Source: a virus | Length of the DNA stretch: 36,537 bases | Strand: one strand, 5' to 3' | IMG/VR virus record: IMGVR_UViG_3300046504_000196 | Span: 1 to 36,537 of that record | Part shown: positions 3,967 to 27,232 of the stretch, one piece after another | Layout of the letters: each line of letters starts with the position of its first letter | How positions within the stretch are numbered: position 1 is the stretch's first letter | Made by a program: the position numbers and the translations under genes | Notes under the pieces: generated by a model | Database searches by the model: none | Told to the model about the DNA's origin: nothing | The model's input: only the letters and a program-made list of their open reading frames with translations

Positions 3967-4797
3967 TTATTCAGCAACAACTATTTTAGAAAGTCTCGAC
4001 ATATCAATTGGTCTGTCTGTAATGAAATTGGCTTCTTTATTTGCTGTATCGAACCAAAATTTTCTTTCATCTATTGGCATATTCTTCAGATAACCATCAA
4101 ATAAACTACCTTCACGTGTTGCTAAGTGTTTATAACCAATTTTTGGTATAGAATATATCTTACATGCATTGTTTAATGCCCTGAGTAAGAATTCATACAT
4201 GAAGGTTAACTTAATATTTGATTTATATCTACCAACATTAATAAATTCGGACTTTTTAATAACTGCACCCGACAATTTGAAGTCTGTGTATTGTTTAAGT
4301 GCGTTGGCGTTCAGATAACCCATTTCACCGTTCTCACCCACAAACTGTTGTGCCCATACGGTTTCATTGGTTAGTTTAACACCTTGATTTTGTTCATTAA
4401 CCTCAATCATCATAGTCATAAAGACATCAATTTCCGGATATATGGCGATATACAACACAACATTTCTAAAAAATGTAGTACTGTATTCATCATCAAATTC
4501 AAGTACCGAGAAATAATCGGTAGTTGCAGTATCAACAGCAAGATTTACTTGTGATTGATAATCTGTTTTACCTTCATTTTTAACCAAAACAAAAGTTAAT
4601 TTATCTTGATATAAACGTAACATTGAATCTCTCCAACCAATTACGTCTGCTTCAATTAATGCCGGAAATACAATATAAATTAATGGCAGACTTTCTATCT
4701 GTTCTTGCTTTGCTATTGATTCTACGGCTTTTGTTAGTAACGGTGTTGTACTATCGTTACATTCAATTATTGGAATTATTATTGATAAATTATTCAT
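3967..4797 (-). CDS. GT-A type glycosyltransferase
   Basis: The protein (276 aa) opens with a Rossmann-like strand typical of GT2 enzymes (L-S-I-I-I-P-I-I-E-C). It carries an acidic metal/nucleotide-sugar motif E-F-D-D-E at 100-104 after a segment D-Y-F-S-V-L. A later stretch S-G-A-V-I-K-K-S-E-F-I-N-V-G-R-Y matches the acceptor-side strand seen in this fold. It lies 26 nt upstream of the sigma gene in the direction of transcription and follows a GT-B enzyme. Acceptor and sugar donor are unknown. Cytoplasmic; no membrane segment seen. Confidence 0.7.
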   Translation of the reverse strand: MNNLSIIIPIIECNDSTTPLLTKAVESIAKQEQIESLPLIYIVFPALIEADVIGWRDSMLRLYQDKLTFVLVKNEGKTDYQSQVNLAVDTATTDYFSVLEFDDEYSTTFFRNVVLYIAIYPEIDVFMTMMIEVNEQNQGVKLTNETVWAQQFVGENGEMGYLNANALKQYTDFKLSGAVIKKSEFINVGRYKSNIKLTFMYEFLLRALNNACKIYSIPKIGYKHLATREGSLFDGYLKNMPIDERKFWFDTANKEANFITDRPIDMSRLSKIVVAE

Positions 4798-4821: not shown

Positions 4822-6021
4822 TTATTTTTGTTCAGTTATTGTTGGTGGTAATGGTTCATTAGGTATATTTACACCTGTAGGCGGTGGTGTTAATACTGAT
4901 TGAAATATTGCAATTCTCTGATTAATAAGTCCTTGATATATTTCAGTAAGGCGTTTTTCTGAGTTTTCCTGAGTATATTTTTCGGCAATTTTTTCCATTG
5001 AAGTATATAGTGCGGGAGAAATTGCGTCATCAAGAAACTTAATAAGTACTTCACCAATTAAAACTGGCAGATCGTAATAATTATCGGTCCAAATGCCTGC
5101 ACCTTCAGCAATTTTTACAACTGTGGTATCGCCTGTACCTTGTCTTTCAAGAATGTATTCAGGTGTAATATCAGGTTTTAAACAGATTGGAATTACTCCG
5201 GACTTCATACATTCAAGAGGAAATGTACCAAAACTTGAGATTCTATCTATCCATACTGCAGCAAAATTACCCTGCAATCTTTTTGCAAAGTCAACTCTGC
5301 GCATTTGCTGTGGTGGTTTACTCTTGGTGAGCATAGGGTCAAAAGTTATCCATGAGTATTGCGGATACCTGCTGAAGAAAACTTTTACTAATTTTGAAAT
5401 TTCATTTGCATTTCTTCCCATAACAGAGACTACGGGTTTTTGTAGTACTGCTGATCTCTGAAAATAACTGGGAATACCAATATCATATACTTGGATATTA
5501 AACTTGCCTCTGCCTTGGAATGTTTCAACCCATTCTTTAAGGGTTTCTGAGGTTGTAATAATATCATTAATGCCGAATGATTTCCAATCAGTGCCCGGAA
5601 TTAATGAATTTATCATATAGTCAACTGATTGAAGTAAACCAATTCTCTGACAAGGCAGGTTTTTAGTTTGTTCCATTACATTAGAATATATGTCAGGTAT
5701 AACCATAATATCTTCAGGACCTACCATTAGTTTTGGATCAGCCATAGGTACGTGCTTAAACTGTGTTAATTCTTTTTCTATCCAAATAGGAATAACATAG
5801 TCACTTTTTTCTACCATAATGAAAACTTCATATCCCATATTCTTTACAACAGTTGCATGAAAATACATTTCATATACACTTGCTGTCGGACCTGGGGAAT
5901 CCGGTATGACAAATAAGAATTTTGATTTCTTATTTATGATCTTATCTAAAGATACTCGGACCTTTTCAATTTTTTCTAATTCGGCTTTTTGTGCCTCATT
6001 ATTTAATAATACTTCACTCAT
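4822..6021 (-). CDS. GT-B type (GT4-like) glycosyltransferase
   Basis: The protein has 399 residues. Its N-terminal Rossmann half includes F-L-F-V-I-P-D-S-P-G-P near 35-45. The C-terminal half begins P-V-V-S-V-M-G-R-N near 197 and carries S-F-G-T-F-P-L-E-C-M-K-S-G-V-I-P-I around 263-279. That last stretch is the GT4 donor-binding signature in which a Glu (E270) contacts the nucleotide sugar. A Pro-rich tail follows residue 375. The start overlaps the stop of the HAD-like gene by 8 nt, so translation is coupled. It forms a pair with the downstream GT-A enzyme. Target unknown. Confidence 0.7.
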   Translation of the reverse strand: MSEVLLNNEAQKAELEKIEKVRVSLDKIINKKSKFLFVIPDSPGPTASVYEMYFHATVVKNMGYEVFIMVEKSDYVIPIWIEKELTQFKHVPMADPKLMVGPEDIMVIPDIYSNVMEQTKNLPCQRIGLLQSVDYMINSLIPGTDWKSFGINDIITTSETLKEWVETFQGRGKFNIQVYDIGIPSYFQRSAVLQKPVVSVMGRNANEISKLVKVFFSRYPQYSWITFDPMLTKSKPPQQMRRVDFAKRLQGNFAAVWIDRISSFGTFPLECMKSGVIPICLKPDITPEYILERQGTGDTTVVKIAEGAGIWTDNYYDLPVLIGEVLIKFLDDAISPALYTSMEKIAEKYTQENSEKRLTEIYQGLINQRIAIFQSVLTPPPTGVNIPNEPLPPTITEQK

Positions 6022-8640: not shown

Positions 8641-8655
8641 AAATCTCGGTCTTTT
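8626..8655 (+). terminator. Hairpin terminator overlapping the gp26-extension stop
   Basis: AGACCGAG (8626-8633) pairs with CTCGGTCT (8645-8652) around an 11-nt loop, followed by a short T run. The stem includes the last codons of the extension frame. The late-type motif GTATTTATAA starts one base after the T run, separating two transcription units. Confidence 0.6.
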
Positions 8656-8665
8656 GTATTTATAA
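8656..8665 (+). promoter_or_regulatory. Candidate phage late promoter (GTATTTATAA)
   Basis: GTATTTATAA ends 15 nt before the tape-measure ATG and directly follows a hairpin terminator. Same motif and orientation as the other late-type sites. Confidence 0.6.
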
Positions 8666-8680
8666 TAAGAAAATACTATA

Positions 8681-15048: not shown

Positions 15049-15360
15049 ATGCCACAGAAAGATTATAATAGATATGCAATATTAACAAATGCCGATGGCA
15101 CTACTGATCCTATGCCATTTGTTATACTGCCTGTAAATCCAAGTGATAAGTATGAAACTTGGAATACTGAATATAATAGATTAGATAAAATCAGTCAAAA
15201 ATATTATGGAAGTCCATTTTATGATTTCCTGATCCTCTATGCAAATGGTTATTTGTCAGAGTTTGATATACCTGATGGTCAGTTAATCAGAATACCATTT
15301 CCATTGTCAAAAGTAAAGAGTGATTATGAAAGTGCATTAACTGCATATACTCAACAATAA
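15049..15360 (+). CDS. LysM-like baseplate protein (gp53 / tail protein X type)
   Basis: The protein has 103 residues. A LysM-like core runs from about 45 to 85: L-D-K-I-S-Q-K-Y-Y-G-S-P-F-Y-D-F-L-I, then Y-A-N-G-Y-L, and I-P-D-G-Q-L-I-R-I-P. This matches the way T4 gp53 and P2 protein X place a LysM fold in the baseplate wedge or hub ('D.Ia..yYG.p..w..i..aN.....di.pG..l.iP'). It starts 3 nt after the large structural gene and must be co-translated with it. It is the last virion gene before the glycan operon. Domain call fairly strong; the exact T4 counterpart is uncertain. Confidence 0.7.
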   Translation: MPQKDYNRYAILTNADGTTDPMPFVILPVNPSDKYETWNTEYNRLDKISQKYYGSPFYDFLILYANGYLSEFDIPDGQLIRIPFPLSKVKSDYESALTAYTQQ

Positions 15361-15363
15361 TCC

Positions 15364-15394
15364 TTGCATCTCTGATTTTTTTTCTTTATGTTTG
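15364..15394 (+). promoter_or_regulatory. Host-type (Bacteroidetes) promoter for the glycan operon
   Basis: TTG (15364-15366), 20 nt, TATGTTTG (15387-15394) matches the Bacteroidetes TTTG / TAnnTTTG promoter. It lies in the 54-nt gap before the ATG at 15415, predicting a leader of roughly 15 nt. The spacing is identical to the gp32 promoter at 32851-32881. Confidence 0.65.
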
Positions 15395-15414
15395 CGGTTG
15401 CATAAAATGTAAAT

Positions 15415-17544
15415 ATGAAAAATAACATCGTAGTCGTATTTTCCTCACATTTTTCAGAAGAAGAAAATCAAAAGTTTATAAAACACGTAGATGAAACAAT
15501 TGGAGTTCAACACAAAACAATTTGTTATCAAAACCTCAATCAATTTAGTCTACCACAGGTATATAATGATGCAATTGAGAAGCATAAAGTCAATGATTGT
15601 ATTTTTGTAATGTGTCATAATGATATTATTATTAAAACTAAAAATTGGGGTAGACTACTTCTAACTAAATATAATAATTCAAAGTACGACATTATTGGTG
15701 TTGCTGGAAGTACATATCTTCCCGCATCGGGAATGTGGTGGGAAGATCGAACCAAAATGTGTGGCATTGTGGAACATACCGATGGTTTAACTCAATGGGT
15801 AAGTGAATACTCTAAGCCAATTCTTAATGTAAAAGAAGTGGTTTTAATTGATGGTTTATTTATAACATTTAATCCCGACACAATTATACATAAATTTGAT
15901 GAAGAATTTAAAGGTTTTCATTTTTATGACCTGAGTTTCTGTATGCCTAACTATCTTGATGGTTGTAATATTGGTGTAACAACCGTAATCAGGATACTGC
16001 ATAAGTCAGTTGGTCAGACCAATCAACAATGGGAAGATTGTAGACGGCAATTTGCAAAGAAATATGAAGACGAATTACCATTGTCGTTACCACCAATTTA
16101 TAGTGATATTGTTGTCAAGTTAACTGCAGAACCCAAGGTTTCGATCATTATACCTACAAAGAATAATCTTAAATATATTCTTAATAATATAAATTCGTGG
16201 AATGATATCTGTAATTATAGTAATTACGAAATTTTAATTGCAGACACGGGTAGTACTGATGATGTAATTAGTGGATATGATGAAATACTGAGTGATAAGG
16301 TAAAACTTATTCGTTATGATTGGTATAATTTTGCCAAAATCAACAACAATATGGTGAAAAATCATGTGAGTGCCGACACAGAATTAGTGCTGTTCTGCAA
16401 CGATGATATTAGGTTAATTAATGATGCACTCAGCAGATGTGTTGAAATCTATAATAAGAATAAAGACGTTGTTGGTACAATTGGAATTCGTTTGCATTAC
16501 GGTAATGGCAGTATTCAGCATAATGGTATTATAATATATCGGGATCATGAAACCAATATAAGACTTTCACATCGGGACATAAAAAAATTGGAAGACTATC
16601 AGACAGGTGTAAATATGAATTCAATCGGTAATACTGGAGCATTTTTACTAATAAAAAAAGATTTATTTCAGTCTTTCGGTGGATTTCCGGAAAATTACGT
16701 GGAATGCCTTGAGGACGTTGAATTAAATCTCCGTTGTAAAATATTGGGTTTAAAAAACATTACTGTTAGTGATGCTGTTGCATATCACTATGAATCTGTT
16801 TCAAGAAACAAAATTCCTGGCGGTGAAAACAGATTTATGACAGATTATTTTACTTTATTGAATTTCATACAAAATAACGGTGTTTCAATAGTACAAAATG
16901 TGGTGAAAATACTTCCTGTAAGTAAATTTGTGGAAGGTAAATATAGTGATGCACTTGTTAATATAATAACAAGAACGCACAACAGACCTAAATATTTTGA
17001 GAATTGCCGAGAATCAATATTAAATCAAAGTCATAAAAATATTAATCATGTTGTTGGTAGTGATACGGATTGTGATTATTATGGTGATTGTATAAACTTA
17101 AAACTTCAAGACGTACAATTTCCTGTTGCAGAATATGGAACATATCAAGCACCTTGGAATTTACATTTAAATGAGTTACAAAAACACGTTAAAAACGGTT
17201 GGGTAATGTATTTAGACGATGACGATAAATTTGTTTCCAATGAGTCATTAAAAATTATAGTAAACAATATTGATAATGAGGACCAAATGATATTTTGGAG
17301 AGTAGACATCAACGGTTGGATTGTACCACCAAATGAAAGTTTTGGTAAAATTATTGCAGGTCAGATTTCGGGTATTGGTTTTATGTTTCATAGTAAACAT
17401 TTGCCAGTTGATTGGGGTTCATGGAATTTTGGTGATTATCGTGTAATGACGCAATTAGCAAAAAAATTAAAACAAAAATGGATCAATGCCGTGTTAACTC
17501 AGACACAAGGCAAACCCAATTTTGGTCAAATACCTGTTGATTAA
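15415..17544 (+). CDS. Three-module glycosyltransferase (GT2-like fusion)
   Basis: This 709-residue protein holds three GT-A-like modules. Module 1 (about 1-225) has I-V-V-V-F-S-S and a motif F-V-M-C-H-N-D-I at 64-71, like the StrF-type glycosyltransferase domain. Module 2 (about 240-495) is a classical GT2: V-S-I-I-I-P-T-K-N-N, A-D-T-G-S-T-D, F-C-N-D-D-I near 330, and a rhamnosyl-type G-A-F-L-L-I-K-K-D-L-F and E-D-V-E-L-N-L-R-C. Module 3 (about 510-709) has N-I-I-T-R-T-H-N-R-P and Y-L-D-D-D-D near 600. It could add several sugars in succession. It is first in the operon and follows a host-type promoter. Donors and acceptor are not known. Confidence 0.8.
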   Translation: MKNNIVVVFSSHFSEEENQKFIKHVDETIGVQHKTICYQNLNQFSLPQVYNDAIEKHKVNDCIFVMCHNDIIIKTKNWGRLLLTKYNNSKYDIIGVAGSTYLPASGMWWEDRTKMCGIVEHTDGLTQWVSEYSKPILNVKEVVLIDGLFITFNPDTIIHKFDEEFKGFHFYDLSFCMPNYLDGCNIGVTTVIRILHKSVGQTNQQWEDCRRQFAKKYEDELPLSLPPIYSDIVVKLTAEPKVSIIIPTKNNLKYILNNINSWNDICNYSNYEILIADTGSTDDVISGYDEILSDKVKLIRYDWYNFAKINNNMVKNHVSADTELVLFCNDDIRLINDALSRCVEIYNKNKDVVGTIGIRLHYGNGSIQHNGIIIYRDHETNIRLSHRDIKKLEDYQTGVNMNSIGNTGAFLLIKKDLFQSFGGFPENYVECLEDVELNLRCKILGLKNITVSDAVAYHYESVSRNKIPGGENRFMTDYFTLLNFIQNNGVSIVQNVVKILPVSKFVEGKYSDALVNIITRTHNRPKYFENCRESILNQSHKNINHVVGSDTDCDYYGDCINLKLQDVQFPVAEYGTYQAPWNLHLNELQKHVKNGWVMYLDDDDKFVSNESLKIIVNNIDNEDQMIFWRVDINGWIVPPNESFGKIIAGQISGIGFMFHSKHLPVDWGSWNFGDYRVMTQLAKKLKQKWINAVLTQTQGKPNFGQIPVD

Positions 17545-17546
17545 TT

Positions 17547-18260
17547 ATGGAGAAATTGGTTGATATTTATATGGCATCATTGTGGCGACAGGGACATGTG
17601 GTTAAAACAGTTAAATCGTTATTGCAGAGTCCAGAAGTGGGTAGTGTTACAATAGCATGTAATAATTACACTAATGAACAATGGGAATTTGTTAATAAAG
17701 AATTGGATGATCCAAAAGTTATATTACATAGAACTAATAATGAAAAGGGCAGTAATGAAAAACTCAGATTTATTGCTATTGGAAGTAATTTTTATATATG
17801 CTTGGCAGACGATGATCTCATATATCCACCTGATTATCTTAATAAATTAATTCAAGGCTGTGAAAAATATAATGCTATGGTTTCTCTACACGGTAGAATC
17901 ATACCAAAAGGTATTATTGGTAGTTATTATGGACAACCGTTGGCAGTTTTTCGATCATTAGGCACAGTTTTAAATGATGTTGAGGTTGACATTGCATCTA
18001 ATTGTGGTTCTTTATTTAAAAGAAATTTTTATAATGATCTTGATAAATGGTATGACTTCTGTGGCGGTACTTCAATGGATGACATATATGTAAATTATTT
18101 TGCTAAAAAAAGAGGTATTCGTAGGATAATACTTGCACATCAAGAAGGATATTTAAGACATAAAGAGCAACTTCCTGAAGATGATTATGTATTTAATAGA
18201 CATAGATATAGTGATAGAGTACAGACTGAATTTATAAATAAATATTTCAACACGATTTAA
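17547..18260 (+). CDS. GT2-like glycosyltransferase
   Basis: The protein has 237 residues. It starts with V-D-I-Y-M-A-S-L-W-R-Q-G, then V-T-I-A-C-N-N-Y-T-N as the nucleotide-binding strand, and C-L-A-D-D-D-L-I-Y-P with the metal-binding Asp residues at 88-90. This is the layout of short GT-A enzymes that act in O-glycan or capsule assembly. It starts 2 nt after the fusion glycosyltransferase and abuts the next gene exactly, so all three are one operon. Acceptor unknown. Confidence 0.75.
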   Translation: MEKLVDIYMASLWRQGHVVKTVKSLLQSPEVGSVTIACNNYTNEQWEFVNKELDDPKVILHRTNNEKGSNEKLRFIAIGSNFYICLADDDLIYPPDYLNKLIQGCEKYNAMVSLHGRIIPKGIIGSYYGQPLAVFRSLGTVLNDVEVDIASNCGSLFKRNFYNDLDKWYDFCGGTSMDDIYVNYFAKKRGIRRIILAHQEGYLRHKEQLPEDDYVFNRHRYSDRVQTEFINKYFNTI

Positions 18261-19070
18261 ATGAAAAGAAATAATATAAATATTAAAAAGACAATTAAAA
18301 AAAGAATTCTATTTGAACAACAAAATAAAGCAGATAGACTTAATAAATCAAAAGGGCATGAAATTTATGTCAGAAGTCATCCTGTGAAAACAGGAAAAAA
18401 AATAAATGTAATTATTTCTGCATATGATTGTGCTGAATTTATTGAAGAATGTTTAAATTCAATTGAAAAACAAACGTATAAATGTTATAAAATATTGTTA
18501 GGTATTGATGGCTGTGAAAAAACATTGGAAAAAATAAAGGAGATTCATCAAAAATATTCAAATTTATATGTATATTATTCTGAGGAAAATAATGGTCCGT
18601 ATCAAATGTTCAATGCACTTATACAATTAGTTCCAAATGGAGAATACATTCAAATATTTGGTGCTGATGATGTAATGAATATTAATATGTTGGAAAATAT
18701 GTCAAAATATGAAATTCCTACGGTATCACGTAATGATGGCGTTTTATTTATTAATAAAAATGTATTAAATATAGTAGGCGGTTTTAGAGATTGGAAATGC
18801 GGTGCTGATAGTGACATGATACATAGAATTACATTGGCAACAAAAAGTAAAATGTATTATGTTTCTCAATATTTTTTTCGTAGAGAACATGATAAACAAC
18901 TCACAAAACATTACAATACAAATTTTGATAGTAATTTAAGAAAGAGATATATTGAAATTACTGAAAACAATAAAAAATCGAAAAATCCTGATATTTATAT
19001 AACTCCGATTTGTAGTATAATAAAAAGAATTTTATATGAAACATTTGATAATAGTACGATTAAAATATAG
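18261..19070 (+). CDS. GT2-like glycosyltransferase
   Basis: The protein has 269 residues. After a basic N-terminal extension of about 45 residues comes I-N-V-I-I-S-A-Y-D-C-A-E-F, the GT2 opening strand. It is followed by L-N-S-I-E-K-Q-T-Y, L-L-G-I-D-G-C-E, and Q-I-F-G-A-D-D at 131-137 as the D-x-D-type site. The C-terminal part has V-G-G-F-R-D-W-K-C-G-A-D-S-D, typical of acceptor recognition in this fold. The stop is TAG. The next gene begins 35 nt inside this one in another frame. Confidence 0.75.
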   Translation: MKRNNINIKKTIKKRILFEQQNKADRLNKSKGHEIYVRSHPVKTGKKINVIISAYDCAEFIEECLNSIEKQTYKCYKILLGIDGCEKTLEKIKEIHQKYSNLYVYYSEENNGPYQMFNALIQLVPNGEYIQIFGADDVMNINMLENMSKYEIPTVSRNDGVLFINKNVLNIVGGFRDWKCGADSDMIHRITLATKSKMYYVSQYFFRREHDKQLTKHYNTNFDSNLRKRYIEITENNKKSKNPDIYITPICSIIKRILYETFDNSTIKI

Positions 19071-19653
19071 AGATATTGAACTCTTAAAATTTCGTGCATC
19101 ACTAATGAAAGAAATTTTAATTCCGTGTTTAGAATCACAAACAAATCAAGATTTTACTCTTTGCATTATGATGTATGATGCTGATCTTAAGTTTGTTTAT
19201 AATGTTTTACAATATAATTTTATATCATTTGAAGATTATAAAATACTTAAACAATATTGCATTGACGATAATATTAACATACAAACACGTCACGATTCTG
19301 ATGATTTCATGTCTAATAATTATGTTGAAAAAATTCAGTTGGAATATAAAAATATTATAAAGGGGCATGACACATTTATACTACAATTTCAACCAGAAAA
19401 AATTAATTATAAAACAGGTGAAATTTTACCCTTTTATCAATATACGAATGAGTCGATTTCGGGATTTGTTACTTTATGTCAAAAAAATGTAAATTTCACT
19501 GTTTATGAAAGACAACATATTTATTTATATGAATTAACAAAAAACATTTATACTTATCCAATAGGATATGTTAAATACTATATACATGGAAAAAATGATT
19601 CATTAATACCACGTGAAGAACGAATTCGTCAATGGAAGTATAATAATGATTAA
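19036..19653 (+). CDS. Putative rhamnosyltransferase-like protein
   Basis: The product (205 aa) fits the 'putative rhamnosyl transferase' family: I-I-V-R-L-K-Y-R-D-I near the start, L-I-P-C-L-E-S-Q-T-N-Q-D-F at 28-40, and the acidic motif R-H-D-S-D-D at 85-90. The early start that overlaps the previous gene by 35 nt is preferred because the N-terminal strand and R-A-S-L-M-K-E helix belong to the fold. It is shorter than typical members at the C-terminus. Sugar specificity cannot be read from sequence. Confidence 0.65.
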   Translation: MKHLIIVRLKYRDIELLKFRASLMKEILIPCLESQTNQDFTLCIMMYDADLKFVYNVLQYNFISFEDYKILKQYCIDDNINIQTRHDSDDFMSNNYVEKIQLEYKNIIKGHDTFILQFQPEKINYKTGEILPFYQYTNESISGFVTLCQKNVNFTVYERQHIYLYELTKNIYTYPIGYVKYYIHGKNDSLIPREERIRQWKYNND

Positions 19654-19663
19654 AATATAAAAC

Positions 19664-20218
19664 ATGATGACATTTAATAGTAAAGAATATTGGGAAAACA
19701 GATATAAATCTGGTGGTAATTCTGGAATAGGATCACAAGGCATTATTGCTGAATATAAGGCGAAAGTAATTAATGATTTTGTGAAGAACAATAATATTCA
19801 GACGGTATGTGAACTTGGTTGTGGAGATTGGTTGTTTTCATTATTCAAAGTTTCCGAATATACAGGATTTGATGTTAGTGAATTTGTTGTTGAAAGAAAT
19901 AAAAAAATATACAAACATAAGTTTACTACATCTATGAATGAACTTACTTTGTATGATTTAACCATTTCAATGGATGTTATTTTACATTTAATTGAAGAAG
20001 AAGTGTATCAACAATATATGAAAGACCTTTTTAGGTTAAGTAACAAGTATGTAATTGTTTATAGTACAAATAAGGACGAAATTCTTGGTGGTATACATAA
20101 TATATTTAGAAAATTTTTACCTGATGTTCCTCAAGAGTTTGAACTAATTGAATTTATTGACAATCCACATAAAGGACCAAATACTCAAGCAGATTTTTTT
20201 ATTTTTAAAAAAATATAA
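19664..20218 (+). CDS. SAM-dependent methyltransferase
   Basis: This class I methyltransferase of 184 residues has motif I V-C-E-L-G-C-G-D at 48-55 for S-adenosylmethionine, followed by Y-T-G-F-D-V-S at 66-72 and a motif IV-like region D-L-T-I-S-M-D-V-I-L-H-L-I-E-E. The D-V-I-x-H-L-I-x-x-x-x-Y pattern is common in methyltransferases found in glycan operons. Two ATG codons are adjacent at the start and either may be used. Its place among glycosyltransferases suggests methylation or capping of a sugar, though a small-molecule target is possible. Confidence 0.7.
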   Translation: MMTFNSKEYWENRYKSGGNSGIGSQGIIAEYKAKVINDFVKNNNIQTVCELGCGDWLFSLFKVSEYTGFDVSEFVVERNKKIYKHKFTTSMNELTLYDLTISMDVILHLIEEEVYQQYMKDLFRLSNKYVIVYSTNKDEILGGIHNIFRKFLPDVPQEFELIEFIDNPHKGPNTQADFFIFKKI

Positions 20219-20226
20219 TTAATAAT

Positions 20227-20943
20227 ATGGCAAAGGTAAATATTATAATAAGAGCATTCAATCGTCTCGAATATACAATAACTACAATTCGTGAAATTGA
20301 CCGTTTGGCGGGTTATAATAATTATAAAATTATTGTTATTGACAATGCCAGTAGTGATGGAACAAAAGAATGGTTAAAATCTTTAATGATTGAGGGTTAT
20401 TATAAATTAAAGCCAATTTACTTGAATTATAATGCTGGTGATTTTGGCGGTACAAAAATAGGTTATGATAATCTTGACTTAGATTGCGAATATGCGATGC
20501 AATGGGATAATGATTGTCCACCATTAACCGAAGGATTTTTAGCAAAAATGGTTGATATTATGGACACTTTTTCAATAATTGGTCAGTTAATGTTAAAACG
20601 TCAAGGTGTTGGAACTGTTTTACAAATATTTAATAAACAAGAGTATAATGGAGTGATTTTTGGTGATGTTAGTCAAGTAACTTGTGTTAATATGCATAGA
20701 AGGTCGGCAGTTCAAAAAATAAATTTTTGGATTACTGAACTTGATACCAAAACATATTGGGATTTTGGTTTAAATGATAAAATGCGAGAAGCAGGATATT
20801 ATTTAAAAAAAATTGAAAACATTAAAGTACAACACATTGATTGTAATGGTACATATGAGGGAAATCGACAAGTACTTAAATATCCAATATATACTAAAAA
20901 TCGCAGTGGAAACATAAATTACAATAAAACTAAATATGAATAA
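20227..20943 (+). CDS. GT2-like glycosyltransferase
   Basis: The protein has 238 residues. It shows V-N-I-I-I-R-A-F-N-R-L at 4-14, I-I-V-I-D-N-A-S-S-D-G-T at 35-46 and Q-W-D-N-D at 92-96, the GT-A nucleotide-sugar and metal motifs. The last 40 residues include V-Q-H-I-D-C-N-G-T-Y-E-G, possibly a catalytic His/Asp region. It begins 8 nt after the methyltransferase and overlaps the following gene by 8 nt. Confidence 0.75.
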   Translation: MAKVNIIIRAFNRLEYTITTIREIDRLAGYNNYKIIVIDNASSDGTKEWLKSLMIEGYYKLKPIYLNYNAGDFGGTKIGYDNLDLDCEYAMQWDNDCPPLTEGFLAKMVDIMDTFSIIGQLMLKRQGVGTVLQIFNKQEYNGVIFGDVSQVTCVNMHRRSAVQKINFWITELDTKTYWDFGLNDKMREAGYYLKKIENIKVQHIDCNGTYEGNRQVLKYPIYTKNRSGNINYNKTKYE

Positions 20944-21640
20944 AAAGATTGGCATTGTTATGACCTATTATAATAGGCAATATCAATTAAATAAAACACT
21001 TGAAACAATAAATCAACAAAATTATGATAATTTGTCAGTTGTAATTGTCGATGATAAAAGTGATGTAGAACTTGTTTTACCAAAATGTAATTTTGATGTT
21101 AAAATAATTAGAATTGGTGACGAAAAACAATGGACAAATCCAGAACCAGCATATAATAGAGGATTTTTATATTTACTTGAAAATACTGATTCAGAAATAA
21201 TTATAAATCAAAATGCCGAAACATACCATGTTGGTAACGTATTAGAATATGCATCGATAAATACGAATTTAAATAATTACATTACATTTGGTTGTTATAA
21301 TGTTGTTCCAAGTGGTAAGCAGAATGGATGGTATAATCATCCAATACATAGACCAGTAGCATATGAATTTTGTTCAGCAATTCATAAAGAGAATTTAATA
21401 AAATTAAATGGATATGATGAACGGTTTTCACTTGGTAGTGGATATGGTGACGATTTTTTATTACATAGAATAAGACTAATGAGATTAAATGTCGAAATAA
21501 CAACAAATCCAATTGTTGTACATCAATGGCATGAAAGTGTTTTGCATGGCGATTTTAATAAAAATCAAAGATTGCTTCAAATTTTAAGACAAGAAGGAAA
21601 AATTAAGGCGGTACATCTTTTTAATAAAGATTTCTGCTAA
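20936..21640 (+). CDS. GT2/galactosyltransferase-like protein
   Basis: The protein has 234 residues. The N-terminus G-I-V-M-T-Y-Y-N-R at 6-14 and V-V-I-V-D-D-K-S-D at 35-43 are typical GT2 strands. The usual D-x-D is replaced by N-Q-N-A-E at 91-95. The C-terminal domain A-I-H-K-E-N-L-I-K-L-N-G-Y-D-E-R, then G-S-G-Y-G-D-D-F, matches the galactosyltransferase C-terminal module. Absence of a clear D-x-D may mean a different metal dependence. It overlaps the previous gene by 8 nt; a 29-nt gap precedes the epimerase. Confidence 0.7.
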   Translation: MNKKIGIVMTYYNRQYQLNKTLETINQQNYDNLSVVIVDDKSDVELVLPKCNFDVKIIRIGDEKQWTNPEPAYNRGFLYLLENTDSEIIINQNAETYHVGNVLEYASINTNLNNYITFGCYNVVPSGKQNGWYNHPIHRPVAYEFCSAIHKENLIKLNGYDERFSLGSGYGDDFLLHRIRLMRLNVEITTNPIVVHQWHESVLHGDFNKNQRLLQILRQEGKIKAVHLFNKDFC

Positions 21641-21669
21641 AAATAATAAGTATATTTTAAATAAAAACA

Positions 21670-22545
21670 ATGAGAATTTTAATTACTGGTGCTAAAGGAT
21701 TTATTGGCACACACTTAACGAAACATTTAGAAGAATGTGGATATGATGTTATCGGTATAGATTTTCAAGATGGCGATCTTCGAGAAGATGGTATGGCAGA
21801 TGCATTAATTGAAAAATATAAACCAGAAATAGTAATTCATCTTGCAGCACAGGTGGGAATATGGTTTAACGAACAAGATTGTTTTCACGCAATTAATTCA
21901 AATGCCATAATGACATTACGTGTTGCTCAAGCATGTGCTAAAAATGGTGCAAGACTATTTCACACATCAACATCAGAAGTTTATGGTGAACATGGCGATG
22001 AAACTATTGATGAAGATGCTCCATTGATTGGTAAACCAACGGGTATTTATGCAATAAGTAAAAGATGGAGTGAAGATGCTGCAAGAGAATATGCGCCAGA
22101 TGGTTTGGTTATTATTAGACCGTCAATGCCATATGGTGCAGGAGCACCCCCTGGAAAAGGACGTAGAGCAATGGATAATATGTTGTGGCAAGCATATCAT
22201 CGCAAATCAATTACTGTACACAGGGGGTCAGTTCGTTCATGGTGTTGGATTGGTGATGTGGTGCGTGGTTGGCAAACAATAATTGAATCTGGACAAGAGG
22301 GTGCATTTAATATTGGAAGGGATGATGACGAAAGAACAATGCTTTGGATAGCAGAAGAATCTTGTAGAATTACAGGTGCTGACAAATCGTTGATTAAATT
22401 AGTTGACCCACCAATAAAAAAAACGATGATTAAAAGATTGTCGACAAAAAAATTACGTGATTTAGGATGGAAACCCATTGTTGAGATTGAAGAAGGAATG
22501 CAGAAAGTTTATGAGTGGGTAATTAAATTTCCTTGGGAAGAATAA
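21670..22545 (+). CDS. NAD-dependent sugar-nucleotide epimerase/dehydratase
   Basis: The protein (291 aa) is an extended short-chain dehydrogenase. The NAD-binding G-A-K-G-F-I-G lies at 7-13. H-L-A-A-Q-V-G follows at 57-63, then H-T-S-T-S-E-V-Y-G at 108-116 and the catalytic Y127-x3-K131. It ends with a domain containing V-R-S-W-C-W-I-G-D-V and F-N-I-G-R-D-D, as in UDP-glucose 4-epimerase and dTDP-glucose dehydratase relatives. It would convert a nucleotide sugar used by the nearby glycosyltransferases. The substrate cannot be told from motifs. It is distinct from the HldD-like epimerase further on. Confidence 0.8.
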   Translation: MRILITGAKGFIGTHLTKHLEECGYDVIGIDFQDGDLREDGMADALIEKYKPEIVIHLAAQVGIWFNEQDCFHAINSNAIMTLRVAQACAKNGARLFHTSTSEVYGEHGDETIDEDAPLIGKPTGIYAISKRWSEDAAREYAPDGLVIIRPSMPYGAGAPPGKGRRAMDNMLWQAYHRKSITVHRGSVRSWCWIGDVVRGWQTIIESGQEGAFNIGRDDDERTMLWIAEESCRITGADKSLIKLVDPPIKKTMIKRLSTKKLRDLGWKPIVEIEEGMQKVYEWVIKFPWEE

Positions 22546-22566
22546 TGCCGAATATAAAAAAATATT

Positions 22567-22746
22567 ATGAAAGACGACAAAATAAAAACCGAAAAATGCG
22601 TTAATTGTGGCGCAGAAACAGATATTCCAATCAGTTTAGACATTGATTTAAGAAAAAATTACGTGGAAGGTGCAGGTCAATTATGTCCTGCTTGTTATAA
22701 TAAGTTTTATGATACAAGAGAAGACAAAGGTTCTGGTAATAGGTGA
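22567..22746 (+). CDS. Small zinc-ribbon protein, 59 aa
   Basis: ATG at 22567 opens a frame ending TGA at 22744-22746. Two C-x2-C pairs, C11/C14 and C40/C43, would form one zinc ribbon. The first 10 residues and the tail are charged. It begins 21 nt after the epimerase and overlaps the HldE-type kinase start by 38 nt. The paired Cys and the fit in the operon support a real gene. Function unknown; a nucleic-acid or protein-binding adaptor is possible. Confidence 0.6.
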   Translation: MKDDKIKTEKCVNCGAETDIPISLDIDLRKNYVEGAGQLCPACYNKFYDTREDKGSGNR

Positions 22747-23494
22747 TGGTTGCAAGGATGTATTTCAATACGGTAAATGCGAAAGGTTAAGTCCTGAAGC
22801 ACCAGTTCCGGTATTTAAACCCCTGAAAGCCATAAATAATGGCGGTATGGCGGTAAATGTATATAATAATCTCAAAGGATTGGGTGTTGATTGTGATATT
22901 CTTACTAATTCAGGTATAACCAAAACCAGGATCGTTGATGAAGTCAGCAATCAGATGCTTTTGAGGATCGATGAAAATGATGAAATTCAGCAAATCACAA
23001 TGGAACAATTAGAAACAATTAATTATGGAATATATAAAGCAATTGTAATTAGTGATTATGGAAAGGGTTTTTTGCATGAAGAAGACATAGAGCATATTTC
23101 AATAAGGCATAAACGTGTATTCATGGATACCAAAAAAGAAATTGGAAATTGGTGTAACGATGTTTTTTGCATTAAAATAAACAACAAAGAATATCAAAGA
23201 AATAAATCTTGGTTAGATCATATGTTTAATAATAATTTAATTGTGACATTAGGTGATAAGGGCGCAAGGTATTGGAATATAAAGAAAAAAGTAAAAGAAC
23301 AGATATTTCCAAACACCAATGAGCATCCTGTACGTGATCTTACAGGTGCAGGTGATACTTTTTTAGCAGGACTTGTTGCAAAATTCATAGAAAATAACGA
23401 TATTTGTGATGCAATAATTTTTGCCAATCGTTGTGCTGCTTGGGCAGTAACGCAAAAGGGTGTGTCAGTGGTTGATAGATATAAAATTGTTTGA
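22709..23494 (+). CDS. HldE-type heptose-7-phosphate kinase domain (PfkB family)
   Basis: This 261-residue product closely resembles the N-terminal kinase half of HldE/RfaE. It has V-L-V-I-G-D-G near 8-14, then R-L-S-P-E-A-P-V-P-V-F at 26-36, N-G-G-M-A-V-N-V-Y-N-N at 44-54, T-R-I-V-D-E-V-S-N-Q-M-L-L-R-I-D at 73-88, and the ATP-site motif L-T-G-A-G-D at 211-216 with the catalytic Asp. HldE phosphorylates D-glycero-D-manno-heptose 7-phosphate at C1. In Escherichia coli this domain is fused to the adenylyltransferase; here the two halves are separate genes, as with HldA/HldC. I chose ATG 22709 because earlier codons lie inside the zinc-ribbon gene and look unrelated. The cupin gene follows after one base. 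Confidence 0.8.
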   Translation: MIQEKTKVLVIGDGCKDVFQYGKCERLSPEAPVPVFKPLKAINNGGMAVNVYNNLKGLGVDCDILTNSGITKTRIVDEVSNQMLLRIDENDEIQQITMEQLETINYGIYKAIVISDYGKGFLHEEDIEHISIRHKRVFMDTKKEIGNWCNDVFCIKINNKEYQRNKSWLDHMFNNNLIVTLGDKGARYWNIKKKVKEQIFPNTNEHPVRDLTGAGDTFLAGLVAKFIENNDICDAIIFANRCAAWAVTQKGVSVVDRYKIV

Positions 23495-23495
23495 A

Positions 23496-23873
23496 ATGAT
23501 AGATGTTAAGTATCAAAAAGACCCGAAATTAAAAGTGCCAAAGGCATGGGGAGAAGAAGTAATAATACATAATGATGATGGTTATTGTGGAAAACTTTTG
23601 CGTTTCAGGAAAGGTGGAAAATTCAGTATGCATTTTCATTCGGTGAAAACCGAAACTTGGTATGTTAATTATGGTAAATTTATACTAACATTTATTGATA
23701 CAAAAATTGCAGATAGACGTACAACTACTTTAGTGAATGGTGATATAGTACATGTTGAAAAAAATACTCCACATCAACTTGAAGCACTCGAAGACGGTGA
23801 AATATTTGAAGTCTCAACACCACATTCAGATGAAGATAGTTATAGAATTGAGAAAGGAGATAGTCAAATATAA
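23496..23873 (+). CDS. Cupin-fold protein (sugar-phosphate isomerase-like)
   Basis: The protein has 125 residues. The single cupin barrel has metal ligands H46-x-H48 and E53 in motif 1 (M-H-F-H-S-V-K-T-E) and H93 in motif 2 (N-T-P-H-Q-L). The start K-A-W-G-E-E resembles the mannose-6-phosphate isomerase C-terminal cupin family. It sits between the HldE-type kinase and a HAD phosphatase, so it may act on a sugar phosphate or nucleotide sugar; a GmhA-replacing isomerase is a speculative possibility. ATG 23496 fits better than the upstream GTG at 23460, which lies inside the kinase gene. Confidence 0.65.
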   Translation: MIDVKYQKDPKLKVPKAWGEEVIIHNDDGYCGKLLRFRKGGKFSMHFHSVKTETWYVNYGKFILTFIDTKIADRRTTTLVNGDIVHVEKNTPHQLEALEDGEIFEVSTPHSDEDSYRIEKGDSQI

Positions 23874-24160
23874 TGTTAATTTATGTGGACATTGATGGCA
23901 CTGTGTGTGATACTGTTGGCGGTTATATGAACGCCAAACCAGATCATCAGGCGATTGCTAAGATCAATAAATTATATGATGAGGGCAATATAATTGTTTA
24001 TTGGACCGCAAGGGGTAAAACAACTGGCATTGATTGGTCTGAATTAACCGGACGACAGTTGACAGATTGGGGTTGTAAATTTCATGATCTTATAATGAAC
24101 CAAAAGCCTAATTATGATTTACTTATTTGTGATAAGACTAAAAGAATTGAAGAATTATGA
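23873..24160 (+). CDS. Compact HAD phosphatase
   Basis: The protein has only 95 residues. Motif I is Y-V-D-I-D-G-T with D6 and D8, motif II is Y-W-T-A-R-G (T45), and a motif IV-like region is L-L-I-C-D-K-T. The family resembles short phosphatases of capsule or polysaccharide loci. Placed between the HldE-like kinase and nucleotidyltransferase, it could take the GmhB step (heptose 1,7-bisphosphate to 1-phosphate), although GmhB proteins are about twice as long. The start overlaps the cupin stop by one base, and the end overlaps the next gene by 4 bases. Confidence 0.7.
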   Translation: MLIYVDIDGTVCDTVGGYMNAKPDHQAIAKINKLYDEGNIIVYWTARGKTTGIDWSELTGRQLTDWGCKFHDLIMNQKPNYDLLICDKTKRIEEL

Positions 24161-24591
24161 ATATTTGGACAAACGGATGCTTTGACATCTTACACGCAGG
24201 GCATATTGATTTATTGTGGTATGCAAAATTATATACTGATGATGTGCAGACAACTGCAAATATTAATGTACCAACAAATAAATTATATGTTGGACTTGAT
24301 AGTGATGAACGGGTTAAGTTCCTCAAAGGAGATAAACGACCAATTAATGACATTAATACCAGAGTTAAAATAATGTCAAATCTTAAAATGGTTGACAGTG
24401 TTGTAATTTTTCATGATGAACAGGAATTAGAATATTTTATCAAAGTATTTAATATTGATTACATGGTAATTGGCGATCAATACAAAGATAAACGGGTTAT
24501 TGGCGCAGAATTTGCGAAACTTGGTGTGATTTATTATCCGACAGATGATCGTTCAAGTACAAATATAATTGAAAAGATTAAAAATCTATGA
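24157..24591 (+). CDS. HldE-type heptose-1-phosphate nucleotidyltransferase domain
   Basis: This 144-residue protein matches the C-terminal adenylyltransferase half of HldE/RfaE. It has T-N-G-C-F-D at 5-10, H-A-G-H at 13-16 (nucleotide-binding HxGH), L-Y-V-G-L-D-S-D-E-R-V-K, G-D-K-R-P-I-N, V-I-G-D-Q-Y, and S-S-T-N-I-I-E-K-I near the end. It would join heptose 1-phosphate to AMP from ATP, giving ADP-heptose. It overlaps the HAD gene (ATGA) and the epimerase gene (4 bases). The adenosine rather than cytidine preference is inferred from the HldE likeness. Confidence 0.8.
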   Translation: MNIWTNGCFDILHAGHIDLLWYAKLYTDDVQTTANINVPTNKLYVGLDSDERVKFLKGDKRPINDINTRVKIMSNLKMVDSVVIFHDEQELEYFIKVFNIDYMVIGDQYKDKRVIGAEFAKLGVIYYPTDDRSSTNIIEKIKNL

Positions 24592-25547
24592 TAGTAGTAA
24601 CAGGTGGAGAAGGTTTTATTGGTCAGAATCTCGTCAAGGAGTTAGAAAAACGGGGAAATATTGGCGTTGTGGTTCTCGATACAAAAACCGAAACTCTGAA
24701 TTCAATTTATGAATGGTTGATGATTCATGCCAAAGAAATTGATATAATCTTTCATTTAGGTGCTATTACCGATACCACTATAATGGATAGAAATCTTTTC
24801 GATGAATATAATGTAGTTTCATCAATGTTTATTTGGAACATCTGCACAAATAATCAAATTCCGTTGATTTATGCAAGTTCGGCAGCAACTTATGGTGATG
24901 GAGAAGAAGGTTTTGATGATGAAAAATCAATATTGGATTTGAAACCATTAAATCCATACGGTTGGTCAAAACAGCAATTTGATTTATGGGTATTAGAACA
25001 GGAAAAACAACCACCATATTGGTATGGATTGAAATTCTTTAATGTATATGGCAATGGTGAGGCAGGTAAGGGCAAGATGGCATCAGTTGTGTATCAGAAA
25101 TATCTTGAAATTAGGGCAAATGAAGAATATGTGGATGATTGCGTTAAGTCTGATGGTAGTTTTTGTGGTACTCTGCATGTGAATCTATTTAAATCTCACA
25201 ATCCAAAATATATGGATGGTGAACAATTGAGAGATTTTATTTATGTTGATGATATAGTTGATGTTTGTATTTGGCTTTGGAGAGAAAAACCATTGTCCGG
25301 CATTTATAATGTTGGCACAGGTAATGCACGTACATTTAATGATCTCGTAATGGCAGTTTTCAAAAGTCTTGGTACAATGCAAAATATTAAATATATTAAT
25401 ATTCCACCTAAAATCAGGGATAAATATCAATATTTTACTCAGGCAAAGATGAATAAATTAAGAAATGCGGGTTACAGTAAACCTTTTCATGAATTGGAAG
25501 ATGGCGTTAAGAAGTACGTTAATAAACTAAAATATGAAAATTGCTAA
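24588..25547 (+). CDS. HldD-like ADP-heptose 6-epimerase
   Basis: This 319-residue protein resembles HldD/RfaD. The nucleotide site T-G-G-E-G-F-I-G lies at 5-12. H-L-G-A-I-T-D-T-T follows at 56-64, then Y-A-S-S-A-A-T-Y-G-D-G at 95-105 and P-Y-G-W-S-K at 123-128 (catalytic Y124, K128). F-F-N-V-Y-G-N-G-E and K-G-K-M-A-S-V-V are also present. HldD epimerises ADP-D-glycero-beta-D-manno-heptose to the L-glycero form used for lipopolysaccharide core. With the kinase and nucleotidyltransferase just upstream the pathway reading is mutually supporting. It overlaps its neighbours at both ends. Confidence 0.85.
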   Translation: MIVVTGGEGFIGQNLVKELEKRGNIGVVVLDTKTETLNSIYEWLMIHAKEIDIIFHLGAITDTTIMDRNLFDEYNVVSSMFIWNICTNNQIPLIYASSAATYGDGEEGFDDEKSILDLKPLNPYGWSKQQFDLWVLEQEKQPPYWYGLKFFNVYGNGEAGKGKMASVVYQKYLEIRANEEYVDDCVKSDGSFCGTLHVNLFKSHNPKYMDGEQLRDFIYVDDIVDVCIWLWREKPLSGIYNVGTGNARTFNDLVMAVFKSLGTMQNIKYINIPPKIRDKYQYFTQAKMNKLRNAGYSKPFHELEDGVKKYVNKLKYENC

Positions 25548-26169
25548 CATTGTTTACGAGAATGAGTTGGTCAATCACACCAATGTGGAGTATGTAAACT
25601 ATTACAAAGGACTAACTCAGTATGAAAAACTTGATAATACACAGCCTACTTTGTATGTTGGATGGTCTTTTATGAAAGCCTGTAATCCAGATAATGAGAT
25701 TATCCGAAATGCTGATATTCTCAGGAAGAAGATCATTGCCAATGAATTATATTGGGAATTTAGTTTTGAGGAAAGTAAGGCATCTCACATACGTGGTGTT
25801 GACAATTTCGTGAATTTAGCACCGACTTTCTACTTTCAACCAAAGTACGTTTATGTCAATTTAGACCCAGTTTTCTTTCAAGTTGTTGACATTCAAGGTT
25901 TGTTTGATGTTCTACCGAAAAAGATTGATGTCGCATACAATTATCGAAATGAAATGATATATGTTCTTTTTGAAAATAAAATCACTGGTATTGATTTGAG
26001 AATGTATGATTATTTTAAATTTGACACAAATGATATAATTAAAAGATTATCAGAACGTTCAGCAATAATGCATAATGATCTGGATGGTATGATGTATCTC
26101 AATCACTATAAAATCTTTCCAAATTTTAATCTGCTTAAAAGATATCTAATTACGATATTGCCAAAATAA
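25534..26169 (+). CDS. Unknown protein at end of glycan operon, 211 aa
   Basis: The family is not recognised. The sequence is rich in aromatic residues (Y-V-N-Y-Y-K-G, L-Y-V-G-W-S-F-M-K, P-K-Y-V-Y-V-N-L-D-P-V-F-F), with alternating strands and a hydrophilic helical centre. There is no membrane segment or signal peptide. It overlaps the HldD-like gene by 14 nt and is the last gene before a late-type promoter, so it belongs to the sugar operon. A glycan-handling role is only inferred. Confidence 0.6.
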   Translation: MKIANIVYENELVNHTNVEYVNYYKGLTQYEKLDNTQPTLYVGWSFMKACNPDNEIIRNADILRKKIIANELYWEFSFEESKASHIRGVDNFVNLAPTFYFQPKYVYVNLDPVFFQVVDIQGLFDVLPKKIDVAYNYRNEMIYVLFENKITGIDLRMYDYFKFDTNDIIKRLSERSAIMHNDLDGMMYLNHYKIFPNFNLLKRYLITILPK

Positions 26170-26189: not shown

Positions 26190-26199
26190 GTATTTATAT
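26190..26199 (+). promoter_or_regulatory. Candidate phage late promoter (GTATTTATAT)
   Basis: GTATTTATAT ends 18 nt before ATG 26218 and heads the block of probable head-internal genes. It is identical over ten bases to the minus-strand site at 3152-3161. Confidence 0.6.
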
Positions 26200-26443: not shown

Positions 26444-27232
26444 ATGGAAAAAGACAAAAAAAGTAATCTTTCAGAAGAGCATCTTAGGAAGATTAAATAT
26501 CGTTTTGGATATAAGATAAATGAAACCGCAAGATATTCTCCATTAACAAACGCAAATGAAGTATTTGATGAAATACCTACGTTAAAAAATGAGGCAGGTG
26601 ATCAGGAAGATGCTCCTAAACCTGGCGGTGGCGAAGTGCCACCTGCGCCAACTAATGATTTACCTCAAGGTACAGATACATCCACGTTACCTGGACCTGA
26701 AGGTGGTGCTGGCGAAACTCCGGGCGAACAATTGCCAAAGAAAATATCTGCAGGTGGAAAAGAAACACCTGAAGAAGACCCCGAAGTAACGGGTCAAGAC
26801 CCAATGGTAGGTGGTGATGTTAATCCAATGGGTGCAGACATGAATGCAAATCCTCAAGGAGAAGTTGATGACATTCAGAATGATATTATTAAACATAATA
26901 TTGAGGCAATGAAATCTATTAATGATCAATTGCAAAGCCTCGATAAAACAACACAGGATTTGAATGCTAAATTAGATAGTCTTAATGCTGATGTTGAAGA
27001 AGTTCGTGAACCAACGAATACTGAGAAACTTATGAATAAAACAAGTGTAAGTTATCCTTATTATTTTAATCTTAATGATTTTTGGTCGGGAAATTGGTTT
27101 AATGAAAAACATAGTGGTGAAAAAGAAAAGGGCGTAAGAGAACTTCCTGATGGTTCATTCATAGCAGATTTTGATGATCTGCCACAGAAGTCAAAACAGG
27201 ATGTTCAGAATAGTTTTAATGAATTTGATTAA
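26444..27232 (+). CDS. Probable virion/head-associated protein with Pro/Gly-rich linker
   Basis: The product has 262 residues. A basic N-terminal helix (N-L-S-E-E-H-L-R-K-I-K-Y-R-F-G-Y-K-I-N-E) precedes a disordered Pro/Gly/Glu-rich section from about residue 45 to 130. A coiled coil follows (D-I-Q-N-D-I-I-K-H-N-I-E, then S-L-D-K-T-T-Q-D-L-N-A-K) and a folded C-terminal segment with W-S-G-N-W-F. I start at ATG 26444; a TTG two codons earlier is unlikely. The next gene starts within its stop codon. No function assigned. Confidence 0.6.
   Translation: MEKDKKSNLSEEHLRKIKYRFGYKINETARYSPLTNANEVFDEIPTLKNEAGDQEDAPKPGGGEVPPAPTNDLPQGTDTSTLPGPEGGAGETPGEQLPKKISAGGKETPEEDPEVTGQDPMVGGDVNPMGADMNANPQGEVDDIQNDIIKHNIEAMKSINDQLQSLDKTTQDLNAKLDSLNADVEEVREPTNTEKLMNKTSVSYPYYFNLNDFWSGNWFNEKHSGEKEKGVRELPDGSFIADFDDLPQKSKQDVQNSFNEFD

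Follow-up and report, generated by a model that had tools for sequence, protein, structure and literature searches.

We analysed a 36.5-kb stretch of viral DNA (positions 1-36,537 of IMG/VR virus record IMGVR_UViG_3300046504_000196, probably a genome fragment; hereafter the window) that carries, between a gp53-like baseplate wedge gene and a 211-aa gene termed U211, a dense block of sugar genes. Comparison with related contigs reveals that this block fills a conserved slot, composed of gp53, a nearly constant "anchor" glycosyltransferase (GT), variable genes, a heptose-type module that may be present or missing, and U211. With about even confidence, we read the block as an exchangeable, serotype-like glycan island of a jumbo myophage, the likeliest acceptor of the glycan being a protein of the phage's own virion. 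The host of the source phage probably belongs to the Bacteroidota, an indirect link based on the presence of Bacteroidota-type promoters and on a UvsX match that, among isolates, was found only in four Flavobacterium phage records.

Positions 15415-26169 consist of nearly end-to-end open reading frames (ORFs) on the plus strand, encoding eight GT domains (seven if PF11316 is left out), a methyltransferase, a sugar epimerase and a five-gene heptose-type module (Table 1). The AlphaFold model of the anchor GT domain (pLDDT 78) adopts a GT-A fold whose nearest structure is majastridin-UDP (VIA, Z 17.4, root-mean-square deviation 3.1, 205 aligned), with many UDP-sugar GTs ranking behind this UDP-bound bacterial protein at Z ~13-14. 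Homologues of the methyltransferase occur in other islands at 36-74% identity, and the SDR at 21670 reached none of the NCBIfam equivalog cut-offs. The GT part has a GC content of 28.4%, below that of the SDR and module part (33.7%) and of the rest of the window (32.1%).

An earlier note on this DNA had described a large glycosylation operon adjoining baseplate genes, with some seven GT domains and a heptose module, and a dedicated multi-step operon of this kind is borne out by the domains listed above, by an HldD-type enzyme above its equivalog cut-off and by the concentration of GT matches in the slot of related phages. Other claims stand in part. The epimerase is clear (143 bits), and the methyltransferase falls short of its cut-off (20 against 27 bits). 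The genes are not packed entirely without gaps, the stretch 22546-22708 being a spacer unless it belongs to a 59-aa zinc-ribbon-like ORF. The block does border a baseplate gene, gp53, but the downstream gene at 31335-32801, supposedly on the head side, matches no PHROG or Pfam family. A pair of GTs had been placed on the opposite strand, where the first member is a weak GT2 and the second has no match in the databases searched. Finally, the number of GTs fits a defined oligosaccharide, but a single fixed glycan for the whole phage group probably does not exist: gene-order comparison shows that phages whose flanks are alike differ in their GTs, so that the glycan is probably exchangeable.

To place the island among its relatives we used two protein scans. 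The HldD scan returned one close relative on two contigs (299 and 85 kb), identical over the 20.9 kb compared. The scan with MARK, a conserved 488-aa gene downstream of the island, found at least 434 relatives, the longest of their contigs reaching 349 kb; the best 80 were used, so that counts refer to near relatives, and several loci come from contigs that are identical or nearly so. On 101 mapped loci, the gene order is variable genes, kinase (KIN), cupin (CUP), HAD-type protein (HAD), nucleotidyltransferase (NT), HldD, U211, the genes at 26218, 26438, 27232 and 27715, MARK, SSB, UvsX and exonuclease (EXO). Module genes are often missing and U211 is nearly always there, the exception being L059, which has v70 and no U211, with about 1.1 kb available. 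Among 14 relatives fetched at greater length, gp53 lies directly upstream of the island in ten (L111, L113-L117, L119, L120, L122 and L123), was not detected there in L118, and would lie outside the sequence fetched for L112, L121 and L124. The anchor GT domain is present in 13 of the 14 islands at 50-68% identity, the fourteenth (L121) beginning inside its island, and is either stand-alone (~228-236 aa) or fused to differing C-terminal parts. Furthermore, 42 of the 56 PF00535 matches in these relatives fall in the slot, which makes up 6.4% of their sequence. The 193 proteins from island head to module or U211 in the 14 islands, tallied over the 25 commonest families per table, include 38 PF00535, 13 PF13712 and 9 UDP-GlcNAc 2-epimerase matches, many methyltransferases and SDRs, and a DegT aminotransferase in three. 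Of ten proteins of the relatives that were scanned, four reached the wecB cut-off and two were near, and below, the gmd cut-off.

Several comparisons suggest that the filling of the slot is exchanged between phages with similar flanks. L121 and L122 are 80-83% identical in nucleotide sequence over the module and have no match over the GT part. The flanks of L032 and L046 are 90-92% identical, and the 3.3-5 kb preceding U211 do not match at the nucleotide level; their islands (L116 and L117) still share the first GT gene and a 1.8-kb stretch at 90-92%, so exchange there was partial. Presence of HldD changes eight times on the best MARK tree (32 rows, 14 without HldD), at least three of these changes falling on supported branches. 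An apparent recent swap of a whole cassette between L029 and L030, 98-99% identical to inside KIN and different before it, was not used, because the L029 contig ends at that point and a contig-end artefact is possible. In INPHARED, the whole block gave no match in a near-identity search, nor did protein searches with the 1152-aa gene (v1152), MARK, the anchor GT and U211.

The heptose-type module combines a clear epimerase with more diverged partners. The HldD-type enzyme exceeds its equivalog cut-off, and TIGR02198 and TIGR02199 are the best matches of KIN and NT, yet both score below theirs (Table 1). Motifs appear intact in the translations (GAGDTF in KIN, HAGH in NT, DIDGT in HAD, YxxxK in HldD, and a His-rich motif in CUP), and we take each to have its usual functional meaning. 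The KIN ORF is listed from a GTG at 22670, and its start is probably 22709. A 59-aa ORF with two CxxC motifs (22567-22746) overlaps that start and may encode a small zinc-ribbon protein. The HAD protein, whose PDB match 9iqw is a capsule biosynthesis protein, is 45-55% identical to cyanophage genes and has no match to GmhB models. GmhA (PF13580) was found in none of the 14 relatives, whose records may be fragments, and among none of the scanned island proteins of the window. No GT9 heptosyltransferase scored over the cut-off in 15 records, with one sub-threshold fragment, and GT9 was dropped as the candidate heptose-using transferase.

This module has counterparts in cyanophages. Genes 309-313 of P-SSM2 encode an adjacent NT, KIN, HAD, cupin and epimerase, 30-47% identical to those of the window, and S-SM2 holds orthologues of KIN, HAD, NT and epimerase at 32-55% identity. 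In an unrooted kinase tree of 21 viral and 24 cellular HldE rows, the latter hand-picked for spread from at least 80 loci in several phyla, the jumbo-phage and cyanophage kinases lie on one side of a 100/100 branch. The best cellular kinases among the matches listed are 25-32% identical, and cellular kinases closer to the viral clade than the 24 sampled may exist. Two database labels look wrong: "phosphoheptose isomerase" (phrog_1238, P-SSM2 gene 311) sits on the HAD-type protein and is contradicted by its DIDGT motif and HAD matches, and "cysteine dioxygenase" (phrog_7851, P-SSM2 gene 312) sits on the small cupin. As a separate observation, at 8144-9295 of L008 an HNH-type endonuclease is fused in frame to the module cupin gene, as if a homing gene had entered; the matching length of the gene at the same position in L124 suggests a like fusion. 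A further viral contig, L107, has a third arrangement of the module, KIN-SDR-NT-HAD-CUP-SDR, at 8001-11005.

The island encodes a soluble machinery. Across 15 islands, none of the 266 proteins encoded from gp53 to U211 has two or more hydrophobic stretches and three have one, in one case an artefact of the listed KIN start; the same hydropathy rule does detect such stretches, four to five each, in several homologues of tape measure proteins. The flippase family PF13440 is absent from all 15 records and present in 14 of 14 control genomes, and the initiating polyprenol-phosphate sugar transferase family PF02397 is likewise absent from all 15 and present in 10 of 14 controls. The pairing of these two families that marks Wzx/Wzy-type O-antigen or capsule loci is therefore missing, and by hydropathy the island displays the soluble GTs without membrane stretches that mark chloroviruses and Megavirinae. 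These absences suggest that the chain would be built by soluble enzymes and argue against a self-contained lipid-linked polysaccharide route, use of the host's route being still compatible with them.

The predicted promoter at the island head differs from those of neighbouring virion genes. In the window, a candidate TTG-N20-TATGTTTG follows the gp53-like gene, and we label it host-type by what we take to be the Bacteroidota promoter consensus. Six of 11 heads have a TTG-N17-22-TANNTTTG site in the 150 nt that follow gp53, placed 3-6 nt past its stop codon, compared to 2.5% of random 150-mers (binomial p ~1e-7, which overstates independence because the heads come from related phages); one of the 11 heads also has the late-type motif in this interval. 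Counting distinct cases, GTATTTAT lies at most 90 nt upstream of 26218 homologues (33/33), MARK (62/64), SSB (47/53) and the 1152-aa gene (5/8) and precedes none of 13 anchor GTs, with 118 hits in 5000 random 90-mers. The SSB upstreams have both motifs, the host-type one in 46 of 53. Because GTATTTAT precedes virion-side genes, we read it as a putative late promoter-type element of this phage group. In the window, it recurs upstream of 7526, 8681, 11587, 26218, 31335 and 32932 on the plus strand and of 3132 on the minus strand. The earlier note took the promoter type as a hint of early action on the host surface. The promoter type is indeed unlike that of the virion genes, but an early-type promoter does not by itself indicate action on the host surface, because chlorovirus GTs, according to parts of PMC5408694, are expressed early and yet glycosylate the capsid.

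From these genes we infer enzyme activities, an order of transfer, an acceptor and a benefit. Transcription would start at the host-type promoter, for which unmodified host RNA polymerase should suffice. KIN would phosphorylate a C7 sugar phosphate, presumably supplied by the host because no GmhA was found; HAD would remove a phosphate, NT would activate the sugar with a nucleotide, probably ADP, and the HldD-type enzyme would epimerise the activated sugar. Soluble GTs would then add sugars one at a time in the cytoplasm, the first or core bond probably being made by the PF13712 anchor GT and the structure beyond it determined by the variable GTs together with the methyltransferase and the SDR. 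Through a virion protein acceptor, the island would set the "glycotype" of the particle. A constant attachment with an outer glycan under diversifying pressure would be the simplest account of the constant first GT and site, the variable soluble enzymes and their turnover. We tentatively propose, with less than even confidence in the composite claim, that Bacteroidota jumbo phages coat their virions with defined oligosaccharides containing heptose, made in the bacterial cytoplasm entirely by soluble phage enzymes from an anchored, swappable glycotype cassette, and that the heptose enzymes belong to an old, virus-owned lineage in common with cyanophages and were not recently acquired from a host.

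The choice of acceptor is the main point at issue. A virion protein, as in chloroviruses and mimiviruses, appears to us a likelier target than host lipopolysaccharide (LPS) or capsule because the chlorovirus and Megavirinae patterns are similar; neither more nor less than half our confidence goes to it. A less probable alternative is that the island serves to alter the host envelope at an early stage of infection: its GTs would modify precursors of LPS core, O-chain or capsule on the cytoplasmic side, with the host's lipid carriers and export, and would thereby block superinfection by competing phages or alter receptor exposure. The retention of the island within the virion gene region across relatives speaks against remodelling, as do the lack of flippase, initiating transferase and multi-pass proteins and of a GT9 heptosyltransferase over cut-off. 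Several points nevertheless weigh against a heptose-coated virion. The host-type promoter, with no late-type motif at the island head of the window, fits a change of the host surface at least as well, and the full host-type site is missing in five of the 11 heads. LPS-core GTs are likewise soluble and flippase-free, and action on the host surface is therefore compatible with a lack of membrane proteins. The sugars implied, heptose and, through wecB, UDP-ManNAc, are typical of envelopes, and the turnover is O-antigen-like. With KIN and NT below their equivalog cut-offs, the sugar may not be ADP-heptose, and no heptose-transferring GT is assigned in the island. The virion acceptor itself is a prediction from gene content. 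Moreover, parts of two publications favour modification of the host O-chain, by the authors' own preference for pelagimyophages (PMC7029224) and in a review for the GTs of Immutovirus (PMC11500664).

Two further explanations are much less probable. Virus GTs are known to hypermodify phage DNA with sugars, and an early-type promoter would suit GTs that place an oligosaccharide on a hydroxymethylated base. Such a system is marked by an enzyme that makes this base, and the relatives gave no clear candidate: Tet_JBP gave no match over cut-off in 14 relatives (two sub-threshold fragments each contain a stop codon), a C5 DNA methylase occurs in one of 14, and the thymidylate-synthase family in six of 14, whereas GT2 matches occur in all 14. 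Four of those six records were read at the thymidylate-synthase motif position where hydroxymethylases have Asp; three have Asn, and the fourth reads differently. We therefore consider DNA modification an unlikely role for the island, with a very small share of our confidence. The least probable reading, in our judgement, is that the block is an assortment of passengers that make nothing together and persist because gene flow delivers them to a site that tolerates them. The high turnover, the lower GC of the GT part and the homing-endonuclease-like ORFs in some islands (LAGLIDADG_3 in two of 115 proteins) would agree with passengers, but the anchor GT and module order are conserved over long distances, frames are intact, the promoter position is common and every island holds a coherent class of functions.

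Around the island, window genes lie on the minus strand up to ~7.4 kb and on the plus strand from 7.5 kb on. After U211 follow small and large genes without assigned function, MARK, an SSB-like gene (labelled from position and the annotated gene order of Immutovirus), a UvsX-like recombinase and a 5'-3' exonuclease. U211 has a confident predicted model (pLDDT 88.8), no relative in Pfam or PHROGs and no PDB match at E<=0.001, and a structure search gave one match, to an uncharacterised viral structure. A role as sugar enzyme was dropped, since its PDB matches are weak and partial (DnaQ-exonuclease-like and others, best E 0.15), and U211 is not counted among the glycan genes. Outside the island, ten of the 14 relatives have an extra PF00535 match on the opposite strand, 10-18 kb from the island head side. 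Among the conserved virion-side genes, 27232-27705 encodes a 157-aa protein with a HELKH metalloprotease-like motif and a weak PF14891 match.

Table 1. Island genes, promoter motifs and neighbouring features of the window (aa, amino acids; SAM, S-adenosylmethionine).
Feature	Position	Strand	Evidence or remark
gp53-like baseplate wedge gene, upstream border of island	15049..15360	+	phrog_7145 baseplate wedge subunit, E 8e-5
Host-type (Bacteroidota-like) promoter candidate	15364..15394	+	3 nt past gp53 stop
709-aa triple GT: PF13712 anchor GT-A domain (residues 1-224) and two PF00535 (GT2) domains	15415..17544	+	Pfam
GT2	17547..18260	+	PF00535 30.2 bits, above cut-off
GT2	18261..19070	+	PF00535 52.4 bits, above cut-off
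Rhamnosyltransferase-like GT	19036..19653	+	PF11316 (Rhamno_transf) 36.8 bits, cut-off 23
Probable SAM methyltransferase	19664..20218	+	PF13847 20.2 bits, below cut-off 27
GT2	20227..20943	+	PF00535 41.8 bits, above cut-off
GT2 / galactosyltransferase-like	20936..21640	+	PF00535 29.1 bits (above cut-off), PF02709 20.0 bits
NAD-dependent sugar-nucleotide epimerase/dehydratase (SDR)	21670..22545	+	PF01370 143 bits
KIN, PfkB kinase like HldE domain I, heptose-phosphate-kinase-like	22709..23494	+	TIGR02198 127 bits (cut-off 345); phrog_8133 257 bits
CUP, small cupin, likely start near 23496	23460..23873	+	PF07883; phrog_7851 133 bits; 47% to P-SSM2 cupin
HAD, 95-aa HAD-type phosphatase candidate, DIDGT	23873..24160	+	weak HAD matches; PDB 9iqw E 6e-10
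NT, heptose-1-phosphate nucleotidyltransferase-like (HldE domain II)	24157..24591	+	TIGR02199 98 bits (cut-off 181.5); phrog_7878
HldD-type ADP-glyceromanno-heptose 6-epimerase	24588..25547	+	TIGR02197 333.4 bits, equivalog cut-off 274.6
U211, 211 aa, downstream border of island	25534..26169	+	complete ORFs in 52 loci
Late-type motif GTATTTATA upstream of 26218 and virion-side genes	26190..26198 (approximate)	+	
MARK, conserved 488-aa gene	31335-32801	+	no PHROG or Pfam match
Sigma-like gene	3179-3940		Sigma70_r2 E 0.025
Weak GT2 outside island	3967..4797	-	PF00535 17.8 bits, cut-off 23.3
Second opposite-strand GT of the earlier note	4822..6021	-	no match in Pfam, PHROGs or PDB sequences
T4-type baseplate protein (hub)	from 7526	+	PF12322 29 bits; phrog_150
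Long protein at tape measure position	from 8681	+	label from position and annotated Immutovirus order
1152-aa protein	between long protein (8681) and gp53-like gene	+	late-type motif upstream in 5 of 8 cases

Genes for phage glycosylation tend to be classed as "auxiliary", and what they act on is seldom established. A slot whose place and first enzyme stay constant while its other genes are exchanged makes the question testable: the acceptor should depend on the anchor GT, and the glycan should change when the other genes are swapped. Were the virion the target, recombination could exchange surface serotypes between phages, with effects on adsorption, grazing, antibody recognition and phage typing, and this would also help to understand the sharing of a heptose-type module by uncultured jumbo phages and cyanophages. 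Phage GT islands as such are known from the literature. What this analysis adds is the anchored slot, the exchange of cassettes, the predicted promoter contrast between island head and neighbouring virion genes, and the virus-owned lineage of heptose-type modules common to uncultured jumbo phages and cyanophages. In the open-licence literature, we recognised no description of this slot or of a comparable phage heptose module.

Among known systems, the moraphages (PMC12619734) resemble the source phage in size class, GTs and putative host. Parts of that paper present them as uncultured jumbo phages with predicted Bacteroidota hosts, four core orthogroups of putative GTs and islands of variable content, naming DNA, host serotype and virion glycosylation as options; the same parts mention neither a slot at a fixed place nor an anchor GT, an exchange of cassettes or a contrast in promoters, and the words heptose and epimerase do not occur in the main text. 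The Kyanoviridae P-SSM2 and S-SM2 have heptose-type genes (T4-GC 304-308) orthologous to the window module, but in another gene order, in another host phylum and outside a gp53-bounded slot, and with shorter epimerases, 30-32% identical to that of the window. The host recognition cluster of pelagimyophages is described in parts of PMC7029224 as a hypervariable T4-like region with several GTs and with rfaE among its LPS-related genes; it includes tail fibre genes and is dominated by GT8, whereas the island studied here is GT2-rich, bounded by gp53 and U211, and has no fibre gene seen in the block. Immutovirus, a cultured phage of Flavobacterium sp. LMO8, matches the window directly in tblastn among virion and replication genes only in hub (30%), UvsX (34%) and EXO (31%). 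Its own 11-kb GT island (~49-60 kb) likewise shows no hydrophobic stretches in the 12 proteins tested, but lies at another location, has no match to KIN, NT or U211, and has neither promoter motif within the 90 nt preceding the first of its GT genes.

The closest parallels in organisation come from viruses of eukaryotes, whose glycans are chemically demonstrated, whereas that of the island described here is predicted from its genes. In the parts of PMC5408694 that deal with them, the GTs of chlorovirus PBCV-1 are virus-encoded, mostly soluble and early expressed, one being multidomain; two universal GTs are predicted for the glycan core, others are variable, and the capsid is glycosylated in the cytoplasm. 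Megavirinae, as parts of PMC10117803 describe them, have clusters whose content is specific to each clade, with 6-33 genes that include those for nucleotide-sugar synthesis. If the virions are indeed coated by the products of this island, it would be a prokaryotic counterpart of mimivirus and chlorovirus glycosylation.

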